Below, piece after piece: positions 516 through 45,220 of a DNA stretch of 64,000 nucleotides. The translations under genes and the position numbers were made by a program. The stretch is from Arthrobacter ulcerisalmonis (lineage in GTDB: Bacteria > Actinomycetota > Actinomycetes > Actinomycetales > Micrococcaceae), in assembly GCF_900609065.1 (NCBI RefSeq), contig NZ_UXAU01000013.1:62001-126000 (forward strand), written 5' to 3'. The number at the start of each line of letters is the position of its first letter. Positions within the stretch are counted from its first letter, which is position 1. The notes beneath the pieces were generated by a model. The model saw only the letters and a program-made list of their open reading frames with translations. It was not told where the DNA came from and searched no databases.

Positions 516-932
516 ATGGTCCTGTCCTTGGAAGGCCGGCCAGGTAGCCCGCCAGGTTTCGCGGGCCCGGATCTCGACGGCCTGCAGCAGCAGCGGACAG
601 CCGAGATTCGGCTGCTTGCCGGACGCCTGGCCGCGTGCGTTGACCTGCTTGAGCAGGTGCTGGTGGGCTGCCGGGACATCCAGTTGATTCAGTGGCAGTC
701 GCCAGCCGGGCAGGCGTACCGGAGTGCTGTGGCAATGTTGGCTGCCGCGTTGCAGACTGCGTCCCGGCAACTGGCGGAGTCTGCGGCGGACCTGGCCCAG
801 TCTCCGCCGGAGTCCTGGCCAGCGCCTTGGCCACCGGGGGCCGGCTCACCAGCACCGTTGCCGTTTCCCGCGGACCTCCTCGGCAGCCCAATGAATGCCG
901 CAGGGACCGCCGCACTCTGGTGGACCGGCTGA
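516..932 (+). CDS. Small WXG100/Esx-like helical protein
   Basis: The product has 138 residues and is mostly predicted helix. A helix-turn-helix hairpin surrounds the turn QWQSPAGQAYRSAV (Trp60), which resembles the W-x-S/G-x-A turn of WXG100-type proteins exported by type VII systems. The tail is rich in Pro and Ala. ATG at 516 has GAAGGAG eight bases upstream; GTG at 513 is an alternative. The stop TGA overlaps the ATG of the next gene (TGATG), so the two are translationally coupled and the products may act as partners. There is no signal peptide. Assignment to the WXG superfamily is inference from the motif and coiled-coil character; no exact family is recognised. Confidence 0.6.
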   Translation: MVLSLEGRPGSPPGFAGPDLDGLQQQRTAEIRLLAGRLAACVDLLEQVLVGCRDIQLIQWQSPAGQAYRSAVAMLAAALQTASRQLAESAADLAQSPPESWPAPWPPGAGSPAPLPFPADLLGSPMNAAGTAALWWTG

Positions 933-2296
933 TGGCTGACGTTGACGACTGGACTGGCCAGGGTGTGGGGCTGTCACGCGAACCCCGGGATGGGCTCCTG
1001 GGGGTCCGCGGCGGGGTGGGCGGCATCAGTGTGCAACTTGAGGAATTGGGCGCTGGCGCGGAAAAACTGGACGTACTCGCTGCAGAGCTGATGGCAGTGG
1101 ACACTGAGGTGGGCCGTCTGGGTGATGCGCTCTGCCGAGCCACCGGTCAGGTGCAGTGGACGGCGGATCGGCGGATAGCGGCTGTAGCGGACGGGCAACG
1201 GCACATCGATGCGGTGCGGCGGCGGATGCAGGATCTGAGCGAGCACATCAGGGCTTGCCAGCGGGACTATCAGGTTGCCGAGTGGGAGGCGGACGCAGCC
1301 CGTTTCACTGGGATGGCCGGAGTGGCGAGCATTCCTGCTTCCTTGTCCATCATGGCGGGAACTGGAGTGCCGGACGGCGCCACCATGGACAACCTCCTCT
1401 CAGCGCTGGGGGTGAACGCTGCTGCCATGCGTCGTGAGCTGACCCGATACCCGCAGATCCGCGACGTGCTGATGGGCGGCTTCAAACCCCGCCCCTTGGA
1501 CGTGCGGCAGGTCGAGACGGTCTACGTCGACCTGGACAGCTCGCCAGCGGGATTGCTGGAACGAATCCGGAGTATCGACGCCCGCGGGCCGGGGATGATC
1601 GAGGTTGTTGCGGTGGACAACGGGACGGAGCGGGCGTACGTGGTGGTTGTGCCGGGTACCCAAGCCGCCGGCACGCGCGCTGGTGGCAATAACCCCTTCG
1701 ATGAGGCAGGCATTGCCGAGGCGATGTTTTACGATTCTGCCGAGGTCAGCAGGGCTGTGGCGGAGGTGCTCGCAGATTCAGGGGCCAAGGATGGCGACAA
1801 GGTGGTGCTGGTGGGCTACAGCCAGGGTGGGATCCACGCCATGAACATCGCCGCCAATCCCATGATTCAGGAGAAGTACCAGGTGCCTTTCGTCCTCACG
1901 GCAGGATCGCCAGTGGCCGGCATTACACCTCCCGAAACTGTGGAGTCGCTGCATCTTGAACACCGCGCCGACTGGGTGCCAGGAGCGGATGGCGGCCTCA
2001 ACCCGGACACGCGGGGACGGGTGACCGTCACGCTTGATGCGCCGGCGGTTGTGGGCCCGGGCGAAGGCGGCCTGGGAGCAGGCCACAGCTTGACGGGTTA
2101 CCAGGAGGGGGCCCGACTGGCGGCTGCGAGTACCAATCCGTCACTGGTGCATTCCACCGCGGCTTTGGCGGGCCTGGTGGGGACTGCTGGTGTGGCGACT
2201 GCCACCAGGTATTCGTTGACCCGAGCCAAGGATCCTGCCCGTGCGCCAATCAGGCAGGACCCGCGGGGGCGCGAAAGGGGGTTGGGCGCCCGTTAG
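932..2296 (+). CDS. Alpha/beta hydrolase (lipase/esterase-like) with helical WXG-like N-terminal domain
   Basis: The product has 454 residues. Residues about 1-145 are helical and Ala/Arg/Glu-rich, like the substrate modules of WXG/LXG proteins. Residues about 210-410 form an alpha/beta hydrolase: strand VVLVGYSQGG carries the nucleophile elbow (Ser297), with likely partners Asp347 (HRADWVPG) and His385 (GAGHSLTGY). A serine hydrolase acting on a lipid or ester is expected; the substrate is unknown. The open frame extends upstream to 692, but that part is out of phase with the preceding gene and not protein-like. The start at 932 overlaps the previous stop and fixes the coupling. There is no signal peptide, so any export would need a type VII-like route. 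Confidence 0.75.
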   Translation: MADVDDWTGQGVGLSREPRDGLLGVRGGVGGISVQLEELGAGAEKLDVLAAELMAVDTEVGRLGDALCRATGQVQWTADRRIAAVADGQRHIDAVRRRMQDLSEHIRACQRDYQVAEWEADAARFTGMAGVASIPASLSIMAGTGVPDGATMDNLLSALGVNAAAMRRELTRYPQIRDVLMGGFKPRPLDVRQVETVYVDLDSSPAGLLERIRSIDARGPGMIEVVAVDNGTERAYVVVVPGTQAAGTRAGGNNPFDEAGIAEAMFYDSAEVSRAVAEVLADSGAKDGDKVVLVGYSQGGIHAMNIAANPMIQEKYQVPFVLTAGSPVAGITPPETVESLHLEHRADWVPGADGGLNPDTRGRVTVTLDAPAVVGPGEGGLGAGHSLTGYQEGARLAAASTNPSLVHSTAALAGLVGTAGVATATRYSLTRAKDPARAPIRQDPRGRERGLGAR

Positions 2297-2730
2297 CGCC
2301 GACGCGAACCGGTCAGTCCGCCAGCCACCATGGACACGAGGGAAATGATGATGGCGGCAAAAATTGCCGTCCAGAAGAACGAATCGATGCGCAGGTGCAC
2401 CGGCGTGTAACTGCTGATCCATGCGGTGAGGTACAGCATGGCCGCGTTGATCACCACGGTAAAGAGGCCAAGCGTCAGGATGGTCAACGGCAGCGAAAGG
2501 AGGCTGGCGAGGGGCCGCACGAACGCGTTGACCACACCAAAGATCGCTCCGATGAAGAGGAACGCCAGGACAATGCCGATGGTGTCCGACCCCTCCGTGA
2601 CCCCACTGTTCGCGACGGCCTCCGTGGTGGCGGTGCTTGTTATCTCGAGACCCGGCAGGACCCAGCCGGCAACCCAGAGAGCTGCAGCGTTGATGATGAC
2701 TCGAAGGAGAAAGGAACCCATAGACCCCAT
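2293..2730 (-). CDS. Phage holin family 4-type (YvlD-like) membrane protein
   Basis: A 145-residue integral membrane protein with four hydrophobic segments. The residues FLLRVIINAAALWVAGWVLPG at the start and FGVVNAFVRPLASLLSLPLT in the middle are typical of the Phage_holin_4_2/YvlD family. Despite the name, these are chromosomal membrane proteins of unclear role, sometimes linked to envelope stress; no lysis genes are nearby. The C-terminus ends in basic GSRRR. It is convergent with the hydrolase gene and overlaps its last four bases. ATG at 2721 (MGSFLL) is an alternative start. Confidence 0.82.
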   Translation of the reverse strand: MGSMGSFLLRVIINAAALWVAGWVLPGLEITSTATTEAVANSGVTEGSDTIGIVLAFLFIGAIFGVVNAFVRPLASLLSLPLTILTLGLFTVVINAAMLYLTAWISSYTPVHLRIDSFFWTAIFAAIIISLVSMVAGGLTGSRRR

Positions 2731-43061: not shown

Positions 43062-43727
43062 CTAGTCGAGGGGCCGGACGTGGACCATGATGACGCGTGA
43101 GCCTGTTTCGCCGTTGAAGCGCAGGTCGTAGGTGACCTCAAGGCCCGTGCTGGTCCCCGCGGTGATGGCAAAGTCGCTCTTCCCGCTGGGATCCGCCTCG
43201 GTGCCGGAAATCCAGCGTTCGGCGGAGCCGGCATCGATGCCATAGCGTGTCACGGCATCACGGATCAGGCCGAAATACTCTTGGTCTGACGCAGCGGTCA
43301 GGAAGAACGTGACTTCGCTGAAGTCGGACCGGCTTGCAGTGGTGTTGAACCGGATCCGGTCGGTCTGCGCGGTGATCTCCCCATCGGGCGCCGTGATGCT
43401 CAAGGCGATCTTGCCGGCGTCGCGGGTGTTGATCTCCGGGCCAAAGCTGTCCGGGGTGACCTGGACGGCGGACTTTTCCAATTTGCCCGAGCTCATGTCG
43501 AGTTTCGCTGCGCCGGACGCGCGGATGCTGTCCACGCCGGCGGCGTCCAGGGTGGAGAATTCGGAAGTTTTCACGGTGCTCTCCTGCGAGGTGGGGCTGG
43601 TGGTGGGATCTGGGACGGATTGGCAGCCACTCAAGGCCAGCCCGGCTGCAACGACCGGAAGGATCAGGCGGACGACGGCGGCCCGCCGCTTTGATGATTG
43701 AGTGTCGGGAGGGTGCGGCCAGGTCAC
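43062..43727 (-). CDS. Secreted lipoprotein partner of the WXG100 protein
   Basis: The 221-residue protein has a basic N-terminus (SSKRRAAVVRLI), a hydrophobic stretch and lipobox ALSGC with Cys35, then a Thr/Ser-rich linker. The mature domain is beta-rich, resembling LppX/LprG-like or DUF-type lipoproteins, but no family is recognised. Its ATG overlaps the stop of the WXG100 gene (ATGA), so the two are made together. It could be a membrane-anchored partner, a chaperone or an immunity factor for the upstream protein; that is inference from position. Confidence 0.68.
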   Translation of the reverse strand: MTWPHPPDTQSSKRRAAVVRLILPVVAAGLALSGCQSVPDPTTSPTSQESTVKTSEFSTLDAAGVDSIRASGAAKLDMSSGKLEKSAVQVTPDSFGPEINTRDAGKIALSITAPDGEITAQTDRIRFNTTASRSDFSEVTFFLTAASDQEYFGLIRDAVTRYGIDAGSAERWISGTEADPSGKSDFAITAGTSTGLEVTYDLRFNGETGSRVIMVHVRPLD

Positions 43728-45220
43728 TGGTGCACCTCCGCGCCGAAGCCGTCAACGAACCGATCCATGATGCCCGGAATGTTGTTGGTGGGCCGGTACT
43801 GCTCCACCCGGTCATCGAAGCTCGAGCCGATGATGGCGGCTGCCCGGTCCGGGTCGGTGGCCAGTAGGTTTTGGTAGGCGGGCAGGGTGTCCTGGCGGAT
43901 GAGTTCCCAGCGCTGGTCCGCATTGGCAATGTTGCCGTCAGGGAAGCCAGTGGTGAAGTCGGTGCGGAACTGGGTGGGGTTGTCCCAGTTGGTAAAGGGA
44001 ACGTTCTGCGGGCCGGGGCTTTCGACGCTGAACGTATAGGGGAACACTTCCGGGTAGCTCTTGGCCCCCGGGATGGACGGTTCGCCCGCCAACGTGACCA
44101 GGTACGTAACGGCTTCGCCACCGGGATGGCTGCGCATCGCGTCGTAATCATCGGCGATGATCTCGTTTTGCTCGCGGTACAACAGTGAGGTGTTGCCTTC
44201 TTGGACGCGGTCCGGGTCGCCGGAGGCGATGTCGGCCCACGCATCGGCGGTGCCGGCGTCGATGGCTCCTGAATCGCGGAGCCGGTTGATCTCCTCGATT
44301 CCGCCGGTTTGGTAGGCCTGGTGCTGCCGGGCCTGGTCGAGGAAGATTTCCTTGTTCATGTCCAGCATGCTGGTTTCGTAGAACCGGATTTCCTCATCCG
44401 TCATGGTGGCGAGGTCTTCGATCTGGTCCAGGATGGGCAGTGGCACGTCTGAGACCGGATTGTTGGCGATCTGCTGGGCGATGTCCCTGAGCATTGCCAT
44501 GTCTCGGAAGCCGCCCGCAAAGGACGGGCCGATCATGTTGGCCATGCCTGCCCACTGGAGGTCAGGGTTCGCGAGGTACGCCTGGCCGTAGTAGTCGTAG
44601 ACGCTGCGAATGGTGTCCCAGTTGGCCTCGGTTCCCTTCGCGGTGTCCCAAGCGGCCAGGTCGATGCCCATGTCCAGCAGGGCCTGGTTGTTCCAGTAGG
44701 AACTGAGGAAGGTGGCGTACTCCCGCGAGTTCTTCTCGATCAGGCCGGAGTCGGCGGCCGCGTCCATGGCGGCCTTGGCGGCGTCAGGATGAGCCAGCGC
44801 CCACTCGCTGAACTCCTGGCTCTGCAGGTAGGCGGCCCGCTCATCGGGCGTCATCGCGGTGAGCTTGTCCGTCAGTGCCTGCGCCGCTGCGTCGGTGTCA
44901 CCCGGGCCGGGTCCGCTAGATCCCGGGCCGCCTGAACCCTGTCCAGCCGAACTGCTGCTGGCCTTCTCCTGCTCGTCGGCGTTGGCTAGCAGCGCCTTGG
45001 CCGCAGCTTCCAGTCCGGCGGTAGCGGACTTCAAGAATTTCACATGACTGCCGGTCCAATCGCTCCGAAACCGATCGGCGTCGCGCCCCTTCCAAGGGCT
45101 TGCACCGATGGTCCCGCCCAACTGCTGGCTGAGCGTAGTGAGGCGGGTGGCGCCGCCAGTAAGTTCTTTGGCGAGTTGCCGGAGTTGGGCAACATCGCTG
45201 CCATAGAAAGTCCCCGCCAT
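43724..45220 (-). CDS. WXG100-domain protein with large conserved C-terminal region
   Basis: The 498-residue protein begins with a helical WXG100-type hairpin (residues about 1-95) with turn motif SPWKGRDADRFRSDW (Trp43-Lys-Gly45). A Gly/Ser/Pro-rich linker (about 96-115) follows, then a 380-residue mostly helical C-terminal region with MTPDERAAYLQSQEFSEWAL, QWAGMANMIGPSFAGGFRDM and LAGEPSIPGAKSYPEVFP. The last pattern is conserved in actinobacterial proteins I recall only as uncharacterised. It is built like a type VII-exported effector. GGAGGGACAC precedes ATG. No ESX core gene is present in the window. Confidence 0.72.
   Translation of the reverse strand: MAGTFYGSDVAQLRQLAKELTGGATRLTTLSQQLGGTIGASPWKGRDADRFRSDWTGSHVKFLKSATAGLEAAAKALLANADEQEKASSSSAGQGSGGPGSSGPGPGDTDAAAQALTDKLTAMTPDERAAYLQSQEFSEWALAHPDAAKAAMDAAADSGLIEKNSREYATFLSSYWNNQALLDMGIDLAAWDTAKGTEANWDTIRSVYDYYGQAYLANPDLQWAGMANMIGPSFAGGFRDMAMLRDIAQQIANNPVSDVPLPILDQIEDLATMTDEEIRFYETSMLDMNKEIFLDQARQHQAYQTGGIEEINRLRDSGAIDAGTADAWADIASGDPDRVQEGNTSLLYREQNEIIADDYDAMRSHPGGEAVTYLVTLAGEPSIPGAKSYPEVFPYTFSVESPGPQNVPFTNWDNPTQFRTDFTTGFPDGNIANADQRWELIRQDTLPAYQNLLATDPDRAAAIIGSSFDDRVEQYRPTNNIPGIMDRFVDGFGAEVHQ

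Follow-up and report, generated by a model that had tools for sequence, protein, structure and literature searches.

Near the start of the window, by which we mean the whole 64,000-nucleotide stretch analysed (positions 62001-126000 of contig C36 in the 3.5 Mb, 73-contig assembly of Arthrobacter ulcerisalmonis), two coupled genes probably encode a type VII substrate pair that is exported via an FHA-EssC-type route and whose hydrolase acts in the envelope. We read the pair in this way because both proteins carry hairpins, because the partner has an invariant tryptophan and the hydrolase an invariant YxxxE motif in register with the YxxxD of EsxB, because paralogues exist in which a W-x-G hairpin is fused to the same enzyme, and because the hydrolase tends to be lost together with the candidate ATPase. 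The locus comprises the following features:

516..932, plus strand: partner gene, an ORF with its ATG at 516, encoding a WXG100/PPE-like helical hairpin protein of 138 aa
693..722, plus strand: hairpin turn of the partner, W60-Q-S-P-A-G-Q-A-Y-R69, from an alignment of 25 orthologues, with the position of the turn taken from the model
930..934, plus strand: TGATG stop/start overlap that couples the partner and hydrolase genes
932..2296, plus strand: hydrolase gene, 454 aa, with an N-terminal EsxB-like hairpin and a C-terminal alpha/beta hydrolase
1025..1309, plus strand: EsxB/CFP-10-like hairpin of the hydrolase, residues 32-126 (helices 32-71 and 80-126), from the model and an EsxB profile match (E 0.007)
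1268..1282, plus strand: Y113-Q-V-A-E117, a YxxxE motif like the type VII YxxxD/E, invariant in the genus alignment
1496..2224, plus strand: lipase-like alpha/beta hydrolase domain, residues 189-431
1820..1822, plus strand: codon of Ser297, the nucleophile in GYSQGG
1970..1972, plus strand: codon of Asp347, the probable catalytic acid, with nearby Asp353 as the alternative
2084..2086, plus strand: codon of His385, the catalytic histidine
2293..2730, minus strand: convergent neighbour, a four-TM PF04020 (holin superfamily IV) protein

The stop codon TGA of the partner (930-932) and the start codon ATG of the hydrolase (932-934) have one base in common, and an in-frame GTG at 513 lies just before the ATG of the partner. 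Both ORFs with their overlap, the W-x-S turn (W60-Q-S62) and the residues Ser297, Asp347 and His385 are present where an earlier note on this DNA had placed them. The note had also stated that a Sec signal is absent, which is borne out by hydropathy: no Sec or transmembrane hydrophobic segment was found in either the partner or the hydrolase. Its broader description, a small helical partner and an enzyme with a helical N-terminus arranged like a type VII substrate pair, agrees with the coupling of the genes and with the single-chain models, which predict a helical hairpin in both proteins.

The conservation of the pair is far beyond chance. Partner and hydrolase are adjacent in 25 of 25 genus genomes, with the partner gene immediately upstream and the TGATG overlap retained in most, and in a separate set of loci from named Arthrobacter, Pseudarthrobacter and Paenarthrobacter, the closest named relatives of the window genome, the partner precedes the hydrolase at all 79 scored loci; whether the pair is kept together across relatives, as the earlier note had asked, can thus be affirmed. 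With the hydrolase as query, matches were obtained in 35 of 39 genomes, all 24 congeners among them; the family has members in 256 of the 297 Micrococcales genomes and, at the level of the class, in 35 of 198. It usually occurs as one copy per genome. Several families share the gene order purB - pair - PF04020 - aminotransferase, the PF04020 gene adjoining the hydrolase in several other families too, and a role of this neighbour as an immunity gene is not evident. Searches of phages and plasmids yielded no hydrolase match in the former and two in the latter. In some distant families (L062:6464-7135, minus strand; upstream of L123, L128, L130 and L135) no W-x-G/S partner was seen upstream of the hydrolase, and what is encoded there is a protein of some 220 aa or more that looks unrelated and has no Pfam match. 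An EspG-type chaperone was considered for the proteins of about 220-300 aa upstream of some distant hydrolases and fused paralogues, for which the Pfam search gave nothing.

The model of the partner is a hairpin of two helices (residues 20-56 and 63-95) with pLDDT above 90 and with W60 in the turn. Eight residues, W60, S62, P63, A64, G65, A67, Y68 and R69, are invariant among the 25 orthologues. Partners in the genus carry W-x-S at the position where WXG100 proteins have W-x-G, whereas W-x-G itself is frequent in distant partners. Among solved structures, HP0062, EsxEF and EsxA have the nearest folds (Foldseek, best probabilities 0.97-1.0), with E-values >0.1, as is to be expected of so short a helical hairpin. 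Pfam searches at E<1, with scores mostly under the curated cut-offs, match 19 of the 25 partners to the 'Putative T7SS secretion signal domain', six to PPE and four to WXG100. The window partner itself scores 19.9 bits against PPE (PF00823), for which the cut-off is 26 (E 8e-4), and has no WXG100 (PF06013) match in the Pfam search; a search of the partner profile against PDB sequences returned no meaningful match.

These results set limits to the classification of the partner. It has the two-helix hairpin of about 100 residues that characterizes WXG100 proteins but neither their W-x-G turn nor a curated score, and neither it nor the hydrolase has Pro-Pro-Glu or Pro-Glu near the N-terminus. Membership of the WXG100 or PPE family is therefore rejected on both cut-offs and motifs. 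The WXG/LXG families invoked in the earlier note are likewise not supported as labels: the window partner falls under the WXG100 cut-off, and no LXG match was obtained from Pfam at E<1 for either protein of the window pair or for the 25-row alignments. From about residue 97 onwards the window partner has a Pro/Trp-rich C-terminal extension (804-929), which is mostly missing in orthologues.

The N-terminal region of the hydrolase has a possible counterpart in a known type VII substrate. When the profile of 25 hydrolases was searched against all PDB sequences, EsxB (CFP-10) was the sole match, with an E-value of about 0.007 and a weak score, and in the alignment the invariant hydrolase residues R107, Y113 and E117 are aligned with R, Y and D in EsxB. 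EspC is matched by the same region at E 0.006, under the cut-off. The YxxxE motif at residues 113-117, close to the end of the N-terminal hairpin, had been overlooked in the earlier note. A YxxxD/E motif is found in all 78 genus hydrolases (shuffled mean 22.6) and in 42 of 44 distant Micrococcales hydrolases (shuffled mean 9.9). A hydrophobic residue at +7 relative to the D/E has been reported for the recognition of EsxB by EccCb1 (PMC9811218); V, I, L, M, F or W occupies this position in 81% of the distant set and in 46% of the genus, where a stronger hydrophobic column stands two residues further on. The two halves of the bipartite signal, a tryptophan turn and YxxxD/E, are thus present as invariant W60 on one protein and invariant Y113/E117 on the other, with the caveat that the turn reads W-x-S for W-x-G. 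A direct comparison of the partner profile with the hydrolase profile aligns hairpin on hairpin at E 0.029, but with a probability of 1.7%, and this likeness between the two sequences is suggestive at most.

In the hydrolase model the N-terminal hairpin is followed by a low-confidence linker and then by the alpha/beta domain, for which structure comparison gives phospholipase A1 and Bacillus lipases as the nearest folds. Fold, GxSxG motif and Ser/Asp/His triad together identify it as a predicted serine alpha/beta hydrolase. No residue of the triad varies in the 25-row genus alignment, and among 47 distant Micrococcales homologues serine and histidine are each retained in 47 and aspartate in 44, with glutamate in the other three. 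Pfam matches to PE-PPE (PF08237) were obtained for four of the 25 hydrolases (best E 0.024) and to cutinase for five, all under the curated cut-offs; the window hydrolase itself has no PE-PPE match. Paralogues in three congeners combine the same hydrolase domain with an N-terminal W-x-G hairpin in one fused protein (L066:3935-5569, with SPWDGPDGRRF; similarly L067:4544-6118 and L068:4502-6016), each with a protein of 276-302 aa and of no known family encoded upstream. For the paralogue in L066 the hairpin was called from the sequence alone, as Pfam reported no WXG100 at E<0.5.

No ATPase is encoded next to the pair and no T7SS genes adjoin it. EccB is found in none of the 25 genus genomes and EccD exceeds its cut-off in a single one (G023); the genus is therefore not a classical ESX host. 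Two ATPases of the FHA-domain FtsK/EssC-like type, each about 1480 aa long, are encoded in the window genome, on contigs C65 and C22. The earlier note had postulated an ESX-like system elsewhere in the genome and had asked for EccC-type ATPases: ATPases of the EccC/EssC type are indeed present, and it is the label ESX-like that proves too narrow. The relevant loci are:

L047:6553-18675 and L219:672-13955: T7SSd/e- or PFNA-like cluster of contig C65, also with an RDD/FHA protein and giant Big_9/fn3 protein(s)
L048:6713-11155, minus strand: second FHA-EssC-like ATPase, contig C22, 1480 aa, flanked by no evident type VII genes
L049:7565-7828 and L001:1477-1764, both minus strand: WXG100-type proteins (87 and 95 aa) encoded on their own, away from the ATPase genes

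Besides the FHA-EssC ATPase, the cluster on C65 encodes a membrane kinase, PP2C, FHA proteins, a small two-TM protein, MoxR, DUF58, a transglutaminase and a Big_9/fn3 protein of 2055 aa. With respect to T7SSd/e, the ATPase, the kinase and the large Ig-like protein are thus on C65 and the WXG100 genes are on other contigs. The C65-type ATPase is missing in three congeners and the C22-type in one, and since neither subtype is universal among carriers of the pair, each is a candidate exporter at most. A mycosin-like subtilase on contig C46 (L055:10340-11749, about 2.4 kb from an enolase-type gene) has counterparts of similar match strength throughout the genus; it was rejected as a local ESX part, being solitary, under the family cut-off and without T7SS genes around it. 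The window encodes a further candidate type VII substrate at 43724-45220 (minus strand), a protein of 498 aa with an N-terminal W-x-G hairpin-type domain (SPWKGRDADRF) and with Pfam matches to T7SS_signal (E 0.0015), WXG100 (E 0.025) and DUF2515.

Across the order, an EccC/EssC-type ATPase is present in 280 of 297 Micrococcales genomes (E<=1e-40). The hydrolase is missing from 14 of the 17 genomes without the ATPase versus 27 of the 280 with it (OR 44, p 5e-11), and from seven of seven genera without the ATPase (p 4e-6), statistics that ignore phylogeny and in which one family of small genomes accounts for most of the losses. The same test on the neighbouring PF04020 gene, which served as the control for locus loss and genome reduction, gave OR 2.8 (p 0.09). 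We regard the co-loss as a supportive but not decisive link to type VII secretion, because phylogeny is left out of account, the losses cluster in one family and three candidate ATPases were scored per genome.

Taken together, these observations suggest the following mechanism. The W-x-S hairpin of the partner would bind the N-terminal, EsxB-like hairpin of the hydrolase and form a four-helix bundle, in which the W-x-S turn would come to lie beside YxxxE and so rebuild a bipartite tag for an ATPase of the EccC/EssC family. The complex would then be exported by a Micrococcales variant of type VII secretion built around an FHA-domain EssC-like ATPase and not around EccB/EccD. Outside the cell the alpha/beta hydrolase would work as an envelope lipase or esterase, more likely on the lipids of the producer than as a toxin.

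The resemblance to type VII substrates can have other explanations. It is possible, though unlikely, that the hydrolase stays in the cytoplasm or at the membrane, that its helical partner has a regulatory role, and that the likeness reflects convergence, or ancestry without export. The absence of T7SS genes next to the pair would fit such a role, as would the weak scores to Esx families, short helical hairpins being easily matched. Retention of the tryptophan turn in the partner and of YxxxD/E in nearly all distant hydrolases would then be unexpected, as would the in-register alignment with EsxB and the co-loss with the ATPase. With a very small probability, the pair could belong with those mycobacterial PE/PPE proteins that have a PE-PPE serine-hydrolase domain, as a branch of them in Micrococcales. 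The sub-threshold PPE, PE-PPE and cutinase matches described above point in this direction, and PE-PPE domains likewise have GxSxG and a Ser/Asp/His triad (PMC3037379). Every one of these scores, however, is under its curated cut-off, the Pro-Pro-Glu and Pro-Glu motifs are missing from both N-termini, and the hydrolase hairpin matches EsxB and not PE or PPE structures.

A third alternative accepts type VII export and differs in its target: the hydrolase may be an antibacterial phospholipase effector against competitors, like staphylococcal TslA, a type VII-secreted antibacterial phospholipase A with small helical partners (PMC10730906). The structural proximity to phospholipase A1 and bacterial lipases is in line with such an activity. 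Nevertheless, we consider this quite improbable, given an enzyme domain that is conserved and not polymorphic, a gene usually in one copy at a recurring chromosomal locus and essentially absent from plasmids and phages, and a convergent PF04020 gene in place of an adjacent gene of immunity type. From the same features, namely the usual single copy, the recurrent synteny, the intact triad, the want of an immunity gene and the near absence from plasmids and phages, a housekeeping envelope lipase or esterase is favoured over an antibacterial toxin. The earlier note had named lipids of the envelope or of competitors as the substrate; the envelope is favoured here, and competitors are the weaker option for an enzyme that is usually single-copy, syntenic and order-wide.

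Type VII secretion has been studied mainly in mycobacteria and Bacillota, and our literature search found no study of type VII substrates in Micrococcales. The two-part type VII tag, together with related pairs in most relatives across the order, suggests that a conserved exported envelope enzyme may have been overlooked. This candidate substrate occurs in most of the order, its cargo is a conserved enzyme, and the halves of its signal are divided between two proteins; it offers a test of FHA-EssC ATPases as secretion motors and of the purpose of type VII export outside virulence and competition. A more far-reaching proposal, whose chances we place just short of even, is that the EsxB-lipase fusion and its W-x-S/G partner are an order-wide, largely vertically inherited unit, exported by an EccB/EccD-less, kinase/FHA-associated system for routine remodelling of envelope lipids. 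If so, type VII secretion would be a part of core physiology in Micrococcales and not a system of virulence or competition.

Among known machineries, the C65 cluster is most readily compared with T7SSd/T7SSe (PMC11217815, in which Micrococc- taxa are unmentioned). The FHA-EssC-like ATPase, the membrane kinase, PP2C, the FHA proteins, the small TM protein and the 2055-aa Big_9/fn3 protein have their counterparts there, a likeness of gene layout. In contrast to T7SSd/e, the cluster also encodes MoxR, DUF58 and a transglutaminase, like the PFNA cluster of bifidobacteria (PMC8430577), and no WXG100 gene was seen in the region read.

Among known substrates, TslA with TlaA1/TlaA2 of T7SSb (PMC10730906) likewise has an alpha/beta hydrolase of lipase type, one or more small helical partners and a type VII route, the latter predicted in our case; TslA, however, has a C-terminal helical domain, two partners and an adjacent immunity gene, whereas here the helical domain comes first, the partner is single and no immunity gene was seen. 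Mycobacterial pairs of the PE-PPE/LipY type share the small helical partner and a helical N-terminus followed by a C-terminal GxSxG serine hydrolase with its triad (PMC3037379), but differ from the present pair, which has no PE/PPE motif and a PE-PPE score under the cut-off and occurs in hosts without EccB/EccD. EsxA-EsxB (ESAT-6/CFP-10) and other WXG100 heterodimers are likewise bicistronic, with two hairpins, the tryptophan turn on one and YxxxD/E on the other; unlike these, one member here bears a large C-terminal enzyme, which renders the YxxxE internal, the genus has W-x-S for W-x-G, and the pair is unlinked to an ESX locus. The pair would count as a variant among the known substrate pairs of Esx/PE-PPE type and not as a category of its own.
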